Both the position numbers and the translations under genes were made by a program. Below are positions 10,834 to 63,850 of a DNA stretch of 64,000 bases, piece by piece. The stretch comes from Campylobacter novaezeelandiae. GTDB taxonomy: Bacteria; Campylobacterota; Campylobacteria; Campylobacterales; Campylobacteraceae. Location of the stretch: the NCBI RefSeq assembly GCF_004323845.1, contig NZ_QPGR01000003.1, forward strand, positions 88,544-152,543, written 5' to 3'. The notes below the pieces were generated by a model. The model saw only the letters and a list, made by a program, of their open reading frames with translations, had not been told where the DNA came from and did not search any database. The stretch's first letter is position 1. Every line of letters begins with the position of its first letter.

Positions 10834-11891
10834 TGTGGATTTTTTTTCGTTTTATTTCAGGGATTTATCTTAAAAATTTTTTTATTATTTTTTTATCTTT
10901 ACTTTGTTTTTTTGTTTGTATTGATCTTTTATTAAATTTTAAAGATTTACCAAAGTCTGCAAATTTAGATTTGCTTTATGTAGTTTTTTTGGCTTGTAGT
11001 GCTGTATTTTATCTTTTGCCAATCTCTTTAATTTTTGCTTTGATTTTAAGTTTAATCAATATGATTAGAAGTAATGAATTTGTAAGTTTTTATGCATTGG
11101 GATTGAGTAAAAATTTAGTTATTTTATTTCCTTTTTTATGGGCTTTATTTTTTTGTTTTGTTTTTATAGGACTTAATTTTACTTCATTTGCTTATGCTAA
11201 TGATTATAAAAGAAATATTATAAAAAATGGTGTTTTAATCAAACAAGGTGGTGGAGTTTTTCTAAAATTTAATGATGATCTAATTTATATTGATAAGGTT
11301 AAAAGTGCTCAAAATGAGGTTGAGGATATTAAAATTTTTAACACTAAAGATCTCAATCTAACATCATTTGTTATTGCAAAAAAAGCTATTTTTAATGATG
11401 ATTTTTGGATTTTAAAGGAGGGAAGTTTAACATTGCTTCCAAATGAGTATAATGTAAGCGCTAAAGGCTTACAAAGTAAAGAATTTAAAGATTTAAAAAC
11501 TTTAGAAGGCTTTAAACCTAAGATTATTGAAAGCGTGGCAAATAATAGTGATTATTCTATTAAAGATGCATTAGAAGGGTTATTTTTATTTAAGGAACAA
11601 GGCATTAGTTTGCATTCTATAAAAATTTCTCTTTATAAATTGGTTTTTACTCCGTTTTTTGCACCTTTTTTAATGCTTATAATATATTATTTTTTTCCTA
11701 TAACAGCTAGATTTTTTAATTTGGCCTTTGTAAGTTTTATATTTTTTCTTGTAAGTTTTGGTGTTTGGGGATTATTATTTTTGCTTACAAGATTAAGTGA
11801 AAATGGAGTTATTTTAACTGAATTTGGTATTATCTTGCCTATAGTGCTTTTAGCATTATTTGCATTGTTTATGTATTATAAAAATCGTTAA
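10833..11891 (+). CDS. lptG: LPS export permease LptF/LptG family
   Basis: This 352-residue membrane protein belongs to the YjgP/YjgQ family, the two membrane subunits that work with the LptB ATPase to extract lipopolysaccharide or lipooligosaccharide from the inner membrane. Six membrane segments are visible: three at the start (about 12-32, 47-70, 95-120), a periplasmic beta-jellyroll-like region (about 125-260) and three at the end (about 268-290, 297-320, 328-348). It starts on the last base of pth. Sequence alone does not settle LptF versus LptG. Confidence 0.8.
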   Translation: MWIFFRFISGIYLKNFFIIFLSLLCFFVCIDLLLNFKDLPKSANLDLLYVVFLACSAVFYLLPISLIFALILSLINMIRSNEFVSFYALGLSKNLVILFPFLWALFFCFVFIGLNFTSFAYANDYKRNIIKNGVLIKQGGGVFLKFNDDLIYIDKVKSAQNEVEDIKIFNTKDLNLTSFVIAKKAIFNDDFWILKEGSLTLLPNEYNVSAKGLQSKEFKDLKTLEGFKPKIIESVANNSDYSIKDALEGLFLFKEQGISLHSIKISLYKLVFTPFFAPFLMLIIYYFFPITARFFNLAFVSFIFFLVSFGVWGLLFLLTRLSENGVILTEFGIILPIVLLALFALFMYYKNR

Positions 11892-11900
11892 AGGGTTAAG

Positions 11901-13109
11901 ATGGATTATAAAAGTTTAAGGAATGAGTTTAATACTCCTTTTTATATTTATGATTTTGATGAAATAAAGAAAAATTTTTTAGAACTAAAAGAGGCTTTTA
12001 AGGCAAGAAAATCTCAGATTTTTTATGCTTTAAAAGCTAATTCTAATTTAAGCCTTTTACAAATGTTAGTCAAACTTGATAGCGGTTTTGATTGTGTAAG
12101 CATAGGAGAAGTAAAAAGAGCATTAAGAGCAGGAGCTAAACCTTATAAGATTATTTTTAGTGGTGTAGCAAAAACCGAAGAAGAGCTTAAAGAAGCTTTG
12201 GGTTATGATATATTATATATCAATTTAGAGAGTGAATCTGAATTATTACTTTTAGAGAATGTAGCCAAAAAACTTAATGTAAAAGCAAGAATAAGCATTC
12301 GTGTTAATCCTGATGTAGATGCAAAAACTCATCCTTATATTTCTACCGGACTTAATGAAAATAAATTTGGGGTAGAAATAGAACAAGCCAAAAAAATGTA
12401 TCTTTATGCTAAAAAATCTTCTTATTTAGAACCTATTGGAATACATTTTCATATAGGTTCTCAACTCTTAGATCTTTCTCCTGTTTATGAAGCTGCAGAA
12501 ATTGTTGCAAAGCTTGTAAGAGAATTAAAAGCTTTAAAAATTGATATTAAATTTTTTGACATAGGGGGAGGACTTGGTGTAGCTTATGAAAAAGATGATT
12601 TAAGACCAGATCTTTATTTATATGCACAAGGAATTTTATCAAAGCTTGGTGGGCTTGATGTAACTATAGGAATGGAGCCAGGGCGTTTTTTAGTAGCTAA
12701 AAGTGGGAAATTTGTTTGTTCTGTTCTTTATGAAAAACACAATAAAACAAAACGTTTTGTTATAGTAGATGGAGCAATGAATGATTTAATACGTCCTAGT
12801 TTATATGAAGCGTATCATGAAATTATCATGCCTTACAATGAAGGAGAAAAAAGTCTTTGTGATATTGTAGGGGGAATTTGCGAAAGTGGGGATTTTTTCG
12901 CAAAAGATAGATTGCTAGAGCAAACACAAAGTGGTGATATTTTAGTGATTAATGATGCAGGTGCTTATGGATTTAGTATGAGTAGTAATTATAATACTAG
13001 AAATCGTGTATGTGAATTAGCTTTAGAAGATGGTAAAATAAGAATGATACGTCAAAGAGAAAGTTTTGAAGATCAAATAATTTTAGAAGAAAAATTTTTA
13101 AAAGATTAA
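11901..13109 (+). CDS. lysA: Diaminopimelate decarboxylase
   Basis: LysA removes carbon dioxide from meso-diaminopimelate to form lysine, using pyridoxal phosphate. Family motifs are present: FYALKANSN with the PLP lysine (about residue 45), HFHIGSQL, FDIGGGLGVAYE, GMEPGRFLVA, and GGICESGDFFAKDR with the partner-subunit cysteine. 402 residues is the expected length. It lies 9 bases after the permease gene and 2 bases before the HAD-like gene in the same transcript. Lysine synthesis therefore seems intact, in contrast to the pheA, hisC, trp and serB losses noted elsewhere in the window. Confidence 0.96.
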   Translation: MDYKSLRNEFNTPFYIYDFDEIKKNFLELKEAFKARKSQIFYALKANSNLSLLQMLVKLDSGFDCVSIGEVKRALRAGAKPYKIIFSGVAKTEEELKEALGYDILYINLESESELLLLENVAKKLNVKARISIRVNPDVDAKTHPYISTGLNENKFGVEIEQAKKMYLYAKKSSYLEPIGIHFHIGSQLLDLSPVYEAAEIVAKLVRELKALKIDIKFFDIGGGLGVAYEKDDLRPDLYLYAQGILSKLGGLDVTIGMEPGRFLVAKSGKFVCSVLYEKHNKTKRFVIVDGAMNDLIRPSLYEAYHEIIMPYNEGEKSLCDIVGGICESGDFFAKDRLLEQTQSGDILVINDAGAYGFSMSSNYNTRNRVCELALEDGKIRMIRQRESFEDQIILEEKFLKD

Positions 13110-13111
13110 AA

Positions 13112-13879
13112 ATGTTTTTTTTAGATGTTCAAGGCACTTTACTTTCGGATAAAGATAAGAGTTTAATCTCTGGTGCTAAAGAGTTAATTTCTTATTTGAA
13201 TTCAAATAACATGCCTTATGTTGTTGTTACTAACAATACAAAAAAGCTTGATTTTTTATCAATCTTAAAGCAAAAAGGCTTAGACATTAAAGATAATGCT
13301 TATATTGATCCTTTTTATGTTTTAAAAGATATTTTAAAGCCTTGCAAGATTGCGGCATTTGGAGCTAGAGAGTTTTTATTTAGCCTTGAAAATTTAGGTT
13401 TTGAGCTTGATTTTAATCATCCTGAAGCTTTATTAATTTCTAGTTATGATGATTTCAAATTTAAAGATTTTGCTAATATGATAGAGCTTATTAAAAAAGA
13501 TATTAGAGTAATTGCTATGCATGAGACAAGTATTTATAAAAAAGATAATAGACTCTATCCAGGCGTAGGTAGTATTATGGCTATGCTTAAAAATGCTACA
13601 AATTTTAATTATGAAGTAGTAGGAAAGCCTAGTTTAGCTTTTTATAAAGAAGCTTTAAAGCTCATTCAAAAACAAAATGAACAAATTAATTTTGAAGATA
13701 TTTGTATTGTAAGTGATGATTTTAAAGGAGATTTATTAGAAGCTAAAAATTTAAATATGAAATGTATTTTAGTCTTAAGTGGAAAAATGAGCGATACTAA
13801 AGGAATTGATATAAGCTTACTTGATAAAATTTATCCTAGCGTTTTAGAACTTTTAGGGGAGTTAAAGTGCAAGATTTAA
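13112..13879 (+). CDS. HAD-superfamily protein (NagD-like), altered acid residue
   Basis: A 255-residue protein with the HAD-IIA layout: nucleophile motif FFLDVQGTLLS at residues 2-12, motif II VVVTNNTKKL, a cap region, motif III lysine in VVGKPSLAFYKEAL and motif IV VSDDFKGDLLEAKN. In active phosphatases motif I is DxDGT; here it reads DVQGT, so the second aspartate, the general acid, is replaced by glutamine. That points to weak, altered or no phosphatase activity. It overlaps the start of the chorismate mutase gene by 13 bases. Equivalent to Cj0315 by position. Confidence 0.8.
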   Translation: MFFLDVQGTLLSDKDKSLISGAKELISYLNSNNMPYVVVTNNTKKLDFLSILKQKGLDIKDNAYIDPFYVLKDILKPCKIAAFGAREFLFSLENLGFELDFNHPEALLISSYDDFKFKDFANMIELIKKDIRVIAMHETSIYKKDNRLYPGVGSIMAMLKNATNFNYEVVGKPSLAFYKEALKLIQKQNEQINFEDICIVSDDFKGDLLEAKNLNMKCILVLSGKMSDTKGIDISLLDKIYPSVLELLGELKCKI

Positions 13880-14130
13880 ATGAATTAAGAGCACAAATTG
13901 ATGCTTTAGATGATCAAATTTTGTATTTGCTTGATAAAAGAATGTCTTATGTTAAAGAAATAGGCAAAATAAAGCAAAGTAACGCTCAAGAAATTTATGA
14001 TCATAAAAGAGAAGAATATATTTTAGATCGTTTAAATAATGTCAAATATAAATTTTTAAATTCAAACATGATTAAAAGTATCTATAGGGAAATTTTTTTT
14101 ATATCAAAGCAAATACAGAATTTAGATTAA
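13867..14130 (+). CDS. pheA: Chorismate mutase domain only (truncated PheA)
   Basis: In C. jejuni PheA is a fusion of chorismate mutase and prephenate dehydratase with an ACT domain, about 357 residues. Here only 87 residues remain, matching the AroQ helical mutase domain: LRAQIDALDDQILYLLDKRMSYVKEIGKIK with the active-site arginine/lysine residues, and YDHKREEYILDRL. The frame stops just where the linker to the dehydratase would begin (FFISKQIQNLD), and only 114 bases separate it from fliF, so neither the dehydratase nor hisC is present. The start is GTG with GGGGAG ahead of it. The remaining domain could still make prephenate, but this gene could not make phenylpyruvate. Confidence 0.85.
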   Translation: MQDLNELRAQIDALDDQILYLLDKRMSYVKEIGKIKQSNAQEIYDHKREEYILDRLNNVKYKFLNSNMIKSIYREIFFISKQIQNLD

Positions 14131-14192
14131 GATTTTATTAAACTCTTAATAGATTTTTGATACAATAAATATGTTTTTTTAAGTTTTTGTAA

Positions 14193-14198
14193 TATAAT
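14193..14198 (+). promoter_or_regulatory. Candidate -10 box for fliF operon
   Basis: TATAAT follows a T-rich stretch (AAGTTTTTGTAA) 46 bases before the fliF ATG. A second possible -10 (TACAAT) lies at 14161-14166. Early flagellar genes of Campylobacter use sigma-70, which fits; I see no sigma-54 GG-N10-GC pair here. Confidence 0.5.
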
Positions 14199-14244
14199 TT
14201 TCAGTTTAAATAAATAGTTATTTGTAAATTTATTAAGGTTGCAT

Positions 14245-15924
14245 ATGGATTTTAAAAATATGTTCCATCAAATTGGACAACTTTATCAAAATTTAAGCCG
14301 TAAACAACGTATAGTTATAGCGGCTTCTATTGTTGTGGTTGTTGGATTTTTAGTTTTTTTAAGTTTATATCGTAACTCAGGAAGTGCTACTTCAGATGGC
14401 TACGCTATTTTGGTTGAGAATGTAAAACCAAGTTCATCTGCTGCTATTGTTTCAAAATTAGAACAAAGTGGTATTCCTTACCGTTTGCAAAATGAAAATA
14501 CAATTTTAGTTCCCCAAGATCAAGTTTATAGACAAAGAATGATTATTGCATCTGAAGGTCTTATTAAGGATAGTCGCGTTGGTTTTGAAGCTTTTGATCA
14601 ACAACAATTTGGTGCTACCAATGAAGAGCAAAAAGTTAAATATCAAAGAGCAATTGAAGGGGAGCTTGCTAGGACTATTGAAACTTTAGAGCCTATAAGA
14701 TCAGCAGTTGTGCATATAGCCTTCCCAAAAGAAAGTGTTTTTACTGAAAGACAAATTCCTCCTACCGCTTCTGTTGTGCTTAATATTAAAGAAGGTTTAA
14801 AGCTTACAAGGAAACAAATTGATGGGATTAAAAATATCATTTCGGCTGCGGTTCCAAAGCTTACTAAAGACAATGTAAGAATTAGTGATCAAAGTGGAGC
14901 GCCTTTAGATGAGTTAGAAGCTTATGAAAGTGATGTAATTGCTGCACAGGTTAGATATAAAAGAGATCAAGAAAGAGAGCTTGAAGAAAAAATTATATCA
15001 ACCTTAGCTCCTTTTGCCGGTGGAACTGATAAAATAGAAGTTAATGTGAATATAGATTTTGATTTTTCTAAAAAAGAATCTCAAAGTGAAATTTATGATC
15101 CAAATCCTATAGTAAGAAGCGAACAGACTTTAGAAGAACAAAGAGAAGGTAGAAAAGAGCCTGAAATTCAAGGAGTTCCTGGTGCTGTTTCTAATATAGG
15201 TCCAGTTGAAGGGCTTGATAATAAAGGTCAAGTAGAGCTTTATAAAAAAAATCAAGTAACAACTAATAATGAATTATCTAAAACTATAACCAATACCAAA
15301 AAACAATTTGCTACTATTATTAGAACTTCAGCAGCTGTTGCTATTGATGGAAAATATAAAGAAGTTGTTGATCAAGATGGTAATGTTCAAAATGAGTATA
15401 TACCTTTAAGTGATACAGAACTTAAAAATATAGAAAGTTTGGTACAAAGTGCTATTAATTATAATGCAGCAAGAGGTGATATTGTTGTAGTTAGAAATTT
15501 ACCTTTTCATCGTGAGTCTATTAAAGTGGAAAGTAAAGTTAGAACCTTTTATTCACGCTTTATTGAACCATTTATTCCGCCTGTTAAGTATTTTATTGCA
15601 GCTATTTTACTTTTTATTTTTTACAAAAAAGTTATTGGTCCTTTTATGCAAAAAATGCTCGAAGATGCAACCCCAGAAGAGCAACAACAAGCTCCTGGTT
15701 TGGTGTTAGATGAAGCAGAAGATGCTATAGAGAAATTTAATGCAGCAAGGAAAAAAGTTGAAGAACAACTTGGTTTTGGTGATAACTTCAATGAAGATTC
15801 TATTCAGTATGAAGTTTTGCTTGAGAAATTAAGAGGACTTGTGACTGATAAAAGTGAAGAGATTGCTGCTTTACTTCAAAATTTGGTTCAAAATGATTCT
15901 GAATTTAGCGAGAAGGATATGTAA
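14245..15924 (+). CDS. fliF: Flagellar MS-ring protein FliF
   Basis: FliF forms the membrane ring that supports the flagellar rotor and export gate. The 559-residue protein has a membrane segment near residues 24-45, the ring-building motifs typical of FliF (ARTIETLEPIRSAVVHIAFPKESVF), a periplasmic region, a second membrane segment near residues 445-465 and a cytoplasmic C-terminal FliG-binding tail. The ATG at 14245 is chosen because AAGG sits 6 bases upstream; the frame is open two codons further to a TTG at 14239. Its stop overlaps the fliG start by one base. Confidence 0.95.
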   Translation: MDFKNMFHQIGQLYQNLSRKQRIVIAASIVVVVGFLVFLSLYRNSGSATSDGYAILVENVKPSSSAAIVSKLEQSGIPYRLQNENTILVPQDQVYRQRMIIASEGLIKDSRVGFEAFDQQQFGATNEEQKVKYQRAIEGELARTIETLEPIRSAVVHIAFPKESVFTERQIPPTASVVLNIKEGLKLTRKQIDGIKNIISAAVPKLTKDNVRISDQSGAPLDELEAYESDVIAAQVRYKRDQERELEEKIISTLAPFAGGTDKIEVNVNIDFDFSKKESQSEIYDPNPIVRSEQTLEEQREGRKEPEIQGVPGAVSNIGPVEGLDNKGQVELYKKNQVTTNNELSKTITNTKKQFATIIRTSAAVAIDGKYKEVVDQDGNVQNEYIPLSDTELKNIESLVQSAINYNAARGDIVVVRNLPFHRESIKVESKVRTFYSRFIEPFIPPVKYFIAAILLFIFYKKVIGPFMQKMLEDATPEEQQQAPGLVLDEAEDAIEKFNAARKKVEEQLGFGDNFNEDSIQYEVLLEKLRGLVTDKSEEIAALLQNLVQNDSEFSEKDM

Positions 15925-61639: not shown

Positions 61640-62112
61640 TGAAGAAAATATATCTTCTTATTATTTTATTTTTTTTAGGTGCTTGTTCCATAAAAACTCA
61701 TGAAACAAATACTAAAAGTGTTATGATCGGTTTTAATTCTTCTTTTGTGCGTATTCAAGATGTAGGTTTTTTAGAACAAAATGATAAAGTAACTTATCTA
61801 GAAATTTATAAATTAGGGAAAGCCTTTTTTAGAATTAAAATAGAAGATAAAATTTGTTTAAATGAAATTTGTTATGATAAAAAGCTTTTCAATAAAAGAT
61901 TTTTTAAAAATTCTTTTTATGATGATTTTTTAGAAGATATTTTAAAAAATAAACCTTTATTTAATGCCAAAAACTTGCAAAAACAAGATTGTGGTTTTAC
62001 TCAATCAATTAAAGGATTAGATTATGATATTGTTTATGAGATTTGCAATAATCAAACGTTTTTTTTAGATAAATTAAATAAAACAAAAATTACAATACAA
62101 AAGCTTGATTAA
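61639..62112 (+). CDS. Small lipoprotein of unknown function
   Basis: A 157-residue protein with a lipoprotein signal peptide (LLIILFFLGACSIK, lipid cysteine near 16). The mature part has four further cysteines (KICLNEICYDK, QDCGFTQ, YEICNNQ) that could form two disulfides. No known domain is recognised; position corresponds to Cj0375/Cj0376. It overlaps yajQ by one base and ends 16 bases before the AAA ATPase gene. Confidence 0.75.
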   Translation: MKKIYLLIILFFLGACSIKTHETNTKSVMIGFNSSFVRIQDVGFLEQNDKVTYLEIYKLGKAFFRIKIEDKICLNEICYDKKLFNKRFFKNSFYDDFLEDILKNKPLFNAKNLQKQDCGFTQSIKGLDYDIVYEICNNQTFFLDKLNKTKITIQKLD

Positions 62113-62128
62113 ATCCTTAAGGAAATTT

Positions 62129-63850
62129 ATGTTAGATCTTAAAGAGTTTTTAAATACAAAAGATATAGAAAAAACAAAACTTTATCAAAAACTCAAATGC
62201 TCTAAAAATGAAGCTTTGATTTTGAAAGAACTTTGCAAAAATTATGTTGTTTCTGTATCAAGTATTAATGCTTTTGCCTTATTAAGTGGGATTTTTAAAC
62301 AAGAAAAATATGCTTATTTAGATGCTTTAGAAGATTTAAAAAAGCTTTTAGAAAGAGGGTTTATTACCCAAAGTTTAAATTTTTTAAAAAGTTCTAGAGT
62401 GGGTAAAATTTCAAATTCGAGATTAAATCTTTTGCAAAGTGATATTAGTTTAAGTGAGTATTTTTTAGACTTTTTAGAAGATAAACCTAAATTAAAACTT
62501 AATAAAAAAGATCCTTATGAGAATTTTTTAGAATATTTAAAAGATGAGTTTTATAAAATTGAACTCTATGAAAAATTAAGTTTTATTAAGCTTAATTCTT
62601 ATAATCTGGAACTTAAAAATCAAATCAAAGAATTTGAAAAATACATAAAAGAACGTTTAAAGCTTAGTAAATTTTATAATGTTTTAGCTGATATTTTTAA
62701 AGAAAATAAGTTAAATTATAAAGAACAGATTTTGTTTTTAGCACTTTTAAGGGAAGAATATGCCTTAACAAATGAAAATTCTAGTTCAAGGGAATTTAAT
62801 TTTTTACTTTCTTTGATTAGCGAAAATGATTTAGATAAAAGAGCTAATAAAAAATTACTAGAAGAAGGATCAAAACTTATTGATCTTGACTTAATTGAAT
62901 ATGATGAGTATTTACAAGATTTTGGAGAGTTAGCGAGGAGTTTTTTTATTAGTGATAAAATTCTGCAAAGAGTTGTAAATTTTGAACCAAAACAAAATAA
63001 AAAAATTAAATTAGAGAGTGTTTTAAAAGAGCAAGATATTTTTGAACTTATAGAACCAAATACTGATATAAATGACATTATAATGCCTAAACAAACCAAA
63101 GAGCTTTTAGATACTATTTTAAAGCAACAAGATAAAAAAGTTTTAGAAAGACTTACTAAATGGGGTATTAAAACGGGTAAGGATATTGAAGCAAAAATCA
63201 TTTTTTATGGACCAGCTGGGACGGGCAAAACTATGTCAGCTCTTTCTTTAGCTAAATCGATGAAAAAATCAGTTCTTAGTTTTGATTGTTCTAAAATTTT
63301 AAGCAAATGGGTTGGAGAAAGCGAGCAAAATGTAAGAAAAATTTTCGATACTTATAAAAATATCACCCAAACTTGTAAACAAAATCCTATACTTTTGCTT
63401 AATGAGGCTGATCAGTTTTTAAGCACAAGAATAGAAAGTACTAGCGGAAGCGATAAAATGCACAATCAAATGCAAAATATTTTTTTAGAGCAAATAGAGA
63501 AATTTAATGGAGTAATTATTGCAACAACAAATTTCTTAGAAAGTTTAGATAGTGCTTTTTCAAGAAGATTTGATTATAAAATTGAATTTAAAAAACCAGA
63601 TTTTGAAGATAGGCTTAAAATTTGGAAGAAATTTTTGCCCAAAAATGCTGAATTTGATAAAGAATTTGATGAAAAAATTTTAGCAAATTATGAATTAAGT
63701 GGAGCGCAAATTTTAATGGTGGTAAAAAATACTGCCTTAAAAGCCGCAGTTTCTAAAGAAGGAATTTTTAAAATGAAAGATTTTATAGAAAACATACAAA
63801 AAGAATTTAATTCTAGTTTTGATAAAACAAAGATAGTGGGTTTAATTTAA
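62129..63850 (+). CDS. AAA-family ATPase (Walker B asparagine variant)
   Basis: A 573-residue protein. Residues 1-300 form a helical, unrecognised region; residues about 345-540 form an AAA domain: Walker A FYGPAGTGKTMSALSL, sensor region TSGSDKMHNQMQNIF, a sensor 1 asparagine in VIIATTNFLESLDSAF and arginine finger-like SRRFDYKIEF. The Walker B reads ILLLNEADQFL, with Asn where the magnesium-binding Asp is usual. The ATG at 62129 has TAAGGA ahead of it; the frame is open 8 codons upstream. Corresponds to Cj0377. Role unknown; the fold suggests remodelling of a protein partner. Confidence 0.85.
   Translation: MLDLKEFLNTKDIEKTKLYQKLKCSKNEALILKELCKNYVVSVSSINAFALLSGIFKQEKYAYLDALEDLKKLLERGFITQSLNFLKSSRVGKISNSRLNLLQSDISLSEYFLDFLEDKPKLKLNKKDPYENFLEYLKDEFYKIELYEKLSFIKLNSYNLELKNQIKEFEKYIKERLKLSKFYNVLADIFKENKLNYKEQILFLALLREEYALTNENSSSREFNFLLSLISENDLDKRANKKLLEEGSKLIDLDLIEYDEYLQDFGELARSFFISDKILQRVVNFEPKQNKKIKLESVLKEQDIFELIEPNTDINDIIMPKQTKELLDTILKQQDKKVLERLTKWGIKTGKDIEAKIIFYGPAGTGKTMSALSLAKSMKKSVLSFDCSKILSKWVGESEQNVRKIFDTYKNITQTCKQNPILLLNEADQFLSTRIESTSGSDKMHNQMQNIFLEQIEKFNGVIIATTNFLESLDSAFSRRFDYKIEFKKPDFEDRLKIWKKFLPKNAEFDKEFDEKILANYELSGAQILMVVKNTALKAAVSKEGIFKMKDFIENIQKEFNSSFDKTKIVGLI

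Follow-up and report, generated by a model that had tools for sequence, protein, structure and literature searches.

Why would a bacterium keep a chorismate mutase when apparently none of the enzymes that would turn its product into phenylalanine or tyrosine is left? This question is raised by a short gene in the window, the 64,000-nucleotide stretch of DNA analysed here, which belongs to a 1.57 Mb genome (G000; 59 contigs, 99.91% complete).

Identification of a free chorismate mutase gene in the window

The features surrounding the gene are listed in Table 1. The first-pass annotation had described the frame as PheA reduced to its chorismate mutase (CM) domain, ending after 87 residues and followed 114 bases later by fliF, and both statements were borne out. 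The protein matched Pfam CM_2 (E 2.5e-22; 79.3 bits against a cut-off of 27; residues 7-84) and, barely above the cut-off of 69.55, the P-protein-type NCBIfam family CM_P2 (70.7 bits). Its score for CM_A, the DAHP-synthase type, was 58.5, below the cut-off of 106.35. Compared with bifunctional PheA, the window protein has the P-protein-type CM domain but not the PF00800 domain, and stops at residue 87.

Table 1 Features at and around the chorismate mutase gene (positions in the window)
Feature	Position	Strand	Remarks
lysA-like gene	11901..13109	+	Named by inspection only; also precedes CM in other lineages
HAD-IIA family hydrolase	13112..13879	+	Pfam/NCBIfam match; 13-base 3' overlap with the CM gene
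AGGGGAG, probable CM ribosome-binding site	13855..13861	+	Sequence read, function inferred; within the 3' end of the HAD gene
Free AroQ-type chorismate mutase (CM)	13867..14130	+	87 aa; GTG start; end coincides with the border between the CM and prephenate dehydratase (PDT) domains
A+T-rich junction	14131..14244	+	114 bases; site of PDT and hisC in relatives, neither remnant found
fliF-like gene, right border of the junction	14245..15924	+	Named by inspection; ATG start at 14245

The best PDB match was 6al9 (E 1.1e-13), a stand-alone AroQ mutase about equal in length to the window CM, which we take to be the free chorismate mutase of Helicobacter. When the window protein was scanned against genome contigs, one distant locus was obtained, from Clostridiales, with 35% identity. 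Eight sites of E. coli PheA (R11, R28, K39, D48, R51, E52, S84, and Q88), taken here as the CM active-site residues, were all kept in the aligned CMs of G000 and a second genome, G035. Among the 12 free CMs described below, R11, R28, K39, R51, and E52 were present in every protein, and D48, S84, and Q88 were variable. In the second lineage (five genomes, see below), Ala replaced S84 in three and Glu replaced Q88 in all five; Glu at the latter position is also carried by seven aligned relatives that possess prephenate dehydratase (PDT). The curated family matches, the stop that the frames share where the CM domain ends, and the codon test described below exclude a chance frame, and the 87-residue frame is confirmed as a genuine CM-domain gene. 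Its sequence predicts a working chorismate mutase, probably the first domain left over from a PheA that once had two.

PheA of the relatives, a fusion of an AroQ CM and PDT, occupies the same spot behind the lysA and HAD genes and carries the same domain with homologous sequence. The order pheA (357 aa), hisC, fliF was found at the two loci that were read out (G023 and G001), and HisC above its cut-off lay at most 3 kb from PDT in 39 of the 43 PDT-bearing genomes of the genus. An aroQ-pheA > hisHb unit, as in these relatives, is described for C. jejuni in PMC1173090. Relative to this arrangement, the window gene lacks the dehydratase and ACT part, hisC behind it is gone, and no phenylalanine or tyrosine enzyme remains to use the product.

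In none of the seven PDT-less loci of the genus did the interval between CM and fliF yield a remnant of PDT or HisC; the best chance match had an E value of 0.25. The junctions of G000 and G035 are short and nearly identical, which indicates that their loss of PDT predates the split of the two. PDT and hisC may have gone in a single deletion, as suggested in the first-pass annotation, or separately. In the six PDT-less genomes besides G002 the junction measures 117-377 bases. The G002 locus (L076) has approximately 1.5 kb between CM and fliF, with a tautomerase-like 71-aa frame and other short frames.

Absence of PDT, TyrA, and HisC from the genome

Searches of the whole G000 genome gave no match to PDT (PF00800), in support of the first-pass annotation, and a PDT located elsewhere was thereby rejected. 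Prephenate dehydrogenase (TyrA, PF02153) was likewise without a match in the whole genome, so the earlier proposal that prephenate is left for tyrosine only fails. The window gene was the only CM found genome-wide.

That hisC is missing, also claimed earlier, held in part. No HisC above the curated cut-off was present in G000, and a full hisC elsewhere was rejected; a weaker HisC-like gene does exist at G000:C56:89829-90905 (an open frame of 370 aa; 245.6 bits, the top match, against a cut-off of 276.55). By inspection, its neighbours resemble glycosyltransferase or other glycan genes, and histidine synthesis through this gene is unlikely. The corresponding requirements of G000 for phenylalanine, tyrosine, and histidine are predictions from gene content.

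On contig C56 of G000 (locus L117, 5558-10942), two glycosyltransferase-like frames that are nearly identical over their first ~130 residues flank a HisC-like aminotransferase and a HAD-like frame. Further along L117, RANQLET heptads are repeated in series near the start of a 348-aa frame (11853-12899).

Recurrence of the free CM in the genus and the order

Judged from gene content and order, the genus is presumably Campylobacter, and families f1 and f13 are presumably Campylobacteraceae and Helicobacteraceae. CM was present in all 50 genomes of the genus, PDT in 43, and TyrA in 41. The seven PDT-less genomes (G000, G002, G011, G024, G035, G036, and G044) all lacked TyrA, and each had an intact, free CM of 86-87 residues ending at the domain border. 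When a tree was built from seven linked proteins of 27 genomes, G000 and G035 were separate from the other five; monophyly of the seven was rejected (AU p 0.00216), and with it one common loss. Two independent losses within the genus are likely, although a single tree of linked genes could be misled by transfer. In G012 and G048, TyrA was missing and PDT kept, the reverse of the state in g47 described below.

The second lineage, with its five genomes, may correspond to C. molothri and the finch-related species of Miller et al. 2025 (PMC11801493). According to that study, none of 29 C. molothri genomes yielded pheA, tyrA, or the his genes, and the genes lost in this species were mostly missing from three related finch species too. 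Its main text does not contain the words chorismate, mutase, prephenate, or cmoA.

Across the order, PDT was absent in 32 of 398 genomes, namely three from this genus and 29 others. Among these 29, TyrA was found in 22 and CM in 23, and both PDT and TyrA were absent in seven. A third lineage without PDT and TyrA is formed by G108, G121, G252, G394, and G399 (g40, family f13; 99-100% complete). All five have a free CM of 83-92 aa directly behind lysA, and no HAD gene was detected beside it. G212 (82% complete) and G223 (60%) have CM and gave no match to PDT, TyrA, or CmoA; their incompleteness precludes counting them for or against. Hereafter, the 12 complete genomes are the seven of the genus and the five of g40 without PDT and TyrA, with G212 and G223 left out.

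A different state was observed in g47, whose CM hardly differs from 6al9: all 15 genomes have a free CM and keep TyrA, so prephenate can serve tyrosine there. CM itself was absent in G078, G086, G243, G261, G287, and G299 (57-90% complete), all six with TyrA. In the g47 genome G260 (L111 973-2898), a single 641-aa protein joins the CM domain to the end of LysA and carries ~150 extra residues of unknown kind. CM lies within open frames of 643-655 aa in G190, G232, and G341, suggesting the same LysA fusion as in G260, the one that was read.

CmoA and CmoB as a proposed outlet for prephenate

CmoA converts prephenate and SAM to carboxy-SAM (PMC4482062). CmoA above the curated cut-off and CmoB were found together in all 12 complete genomes; in G000, CmoA exceeded the cut-off and CmoB (PF08003) matched with an E value of 1.6e-82. 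CmoB was present in each of the 16 genomes searched. Arg199 of E. coli CmoA is described as binding the carboxyl group (PMC3663124), and its equivalent is Arg in 12/12. The equivalents of Y39, D62, G64, S66, D89, and E164 were also kept in all 12; those of N90, D117, and N132 varied. Across the genus, some match to CmoA was obtained in 50/50 genomes and a match above the cut-off in 48/50. CmoA is thus nearly universal, so its co-occurrence with CM is not an independent correlation and proves little. A cmoA split into two open frames was observed in G016 (C1:479445-480144), a genome with PDT and TyrA, indicating that the pathway can be dispensable.

A genetic dependence of RNA modification on prephenate is reported for E. 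coli in PMC6599085. There, cmo5U34 is lost in a pheA tyrA double mutant, and 5-hydroxyuridine in a pheA tyrA cmoA trhO mutant is restored by a CM-only PheA or by added prephenate. The designed CM-only strain resembles the present genomes in that prephenate is made but leads to neither phenylalanine nor tyrosine, and in that strain it supports tRNA hydroxylation. The two cases differ in that the strain carries a laboratory point mutation and has cmoA and trhO removed, whereas here the loss is natural and CmoA and CmoB are kept.

Combining these observations, we propose the following model. A two-domain PheA would have become a free CM domain after loss of PDT, and TyrA would have been lost too. 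CM would convert chorismate, the supply of which is presumed, to the small amounts of prephenate used for tRNA. CmoA would then form carboxy-SAM from prephenate and SAM, and CmoB would transfer the carboxymethyl group to 5-hydroxyuridine at tRNA position 34, giving cmo5U34. The preceding hydroxylation, by a putative U32-family protein, may need prephenate as well. Since RNA-modification enzymes are the known prephenate users that remain, we infer that CM has been retained on account of tRNA modification. By elimination and from the published E. coli genetics, it is probable that CM has been kept as the supplier of prephenate for cmo5U34. The wider proposition, that the chorismate-to-prephenate step is now a cofactor pathway in some aromatic auxotrophs and that selection has repeatedly retained CM solely to supply RNA modification, is favoured on balance.

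Alternative roles of the retained CM

An unrecognised enzyme, such as a binding-protein-type cyclohexadienyl dehydratase or one of an arogenate route, might still make phenylalanine or tyrosine from prephenate and thereby be served by CM. Non-homologous routes of this kind exist, and a free CM beside TyrA is the regular state in g47. However, PDT and TyrA are both missing in 12 complete genomes of three lineages, and auxotrophy for both amino acids has been inferred in related bird Campylobacter species according to PMC11801493. We regard this explanation as unlikely.

The protein could instead be retained because it binds or regulates DAHP synthase, the first shikimate enzyme, and not because of the prephenate it makes. 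PDB matches of the window CM include the DAHP-synthase-fused CM domains 5j6f, 5gmu, and 3nvt, and free CMs form complexes with DAHP synthase in other bacteria. Such a role is distinctly improbable, however, given the conserved catalytic residues, the match to CM_P2 rather than CM_A, and the lack of a partner gene adjoining CM.

More improbable still is that CM feeds a U32-family RNA hydroxylase acting on tRNA (ho5U34) or 23S rRNA (ho5C), with the CmoA step incidental. TrhP- and RlhA-dependent hydroxylation requires prephenate in E. coli, and the H. pylori protein HP0169 has been suggested to act likewise; H. pylori is listed with PepU32#2, cmoA, and cmoB and without trhO and trhP (all as given in PMC6599085). 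Against this, a motif scan of the examined locus pieces revealed no U32-family gene, and CmoA, which itself needs prephenate, is present with CmoB. In the window, no shikimate or U32 gene was seen among the 20 NCBIfam-named frames of 59 non-overlapping frames of at least 90 aa, and no tRNA gene was found in the 64,000 nucleotides.

Selection on the retained CM

A codon model, run with the first five alignment columns dropped, gave an omega for CM of 0.112 for the pair G000-G035 (p 4.8e-6 against omega 1), 0.157 for the five genomes of the second lineage (p 4.7e-8), and 0.106 for g40 (p 5.7e-23). Pairwise omega was 0.11-0.37 in five PDT-less pairs and 0.007-0.037 in four PDT-bearing pairs; a value of 1 was rejected in four of the five PDT-less pairs, the closest pair being the exception (p 0.22). 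CM is therefore under purifying selection after PDT loss, and this selection is weaker than in PDT-bearing relatives. We interpret the difference as lower demand on CM, as expected if only traces of prephenate are wanted.

The weaker constraint could also suggest a slowly decaying relic that has persisted by chance or owing to its translational overlap with the HAD gene; this is very improbable, as CM is free of stops and frameshifts in 12/12 genomes, omega is well below 1 in three lineages even with the first codons excluded, and the g40 gene persists without a detected adjoining HAD gene. A chance frame or decaying relic was rejected by the codon test.

Implications

If prephenate supply for cmo5U34 is indeed what retains CM, the prephenate need of tRNA modification alone can preserve the enzyme after the amino-acid pathways have vanished. 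Genomes with CM and without PDT and TyrA would then mark cmo5U34 decoding as mattering to the cell. They would be natural counterparts of the designed E. coli experiment and would offer hosts in which prephenate has a single job. No link between a CM retained in an auxotroph and tRNA modification was found in the literature searched. For annotation, an automatic call of pheA as absent hides a retained CM domain, and a lone CM is no proof of phenylalanine or tyrosine synthesis.

Elsewhere in the window, an AAA+ ATPase-like frame at 62105-63847 weakly matched IteA, an anti-phage ATPase (105.7 bits; cut-off 510).
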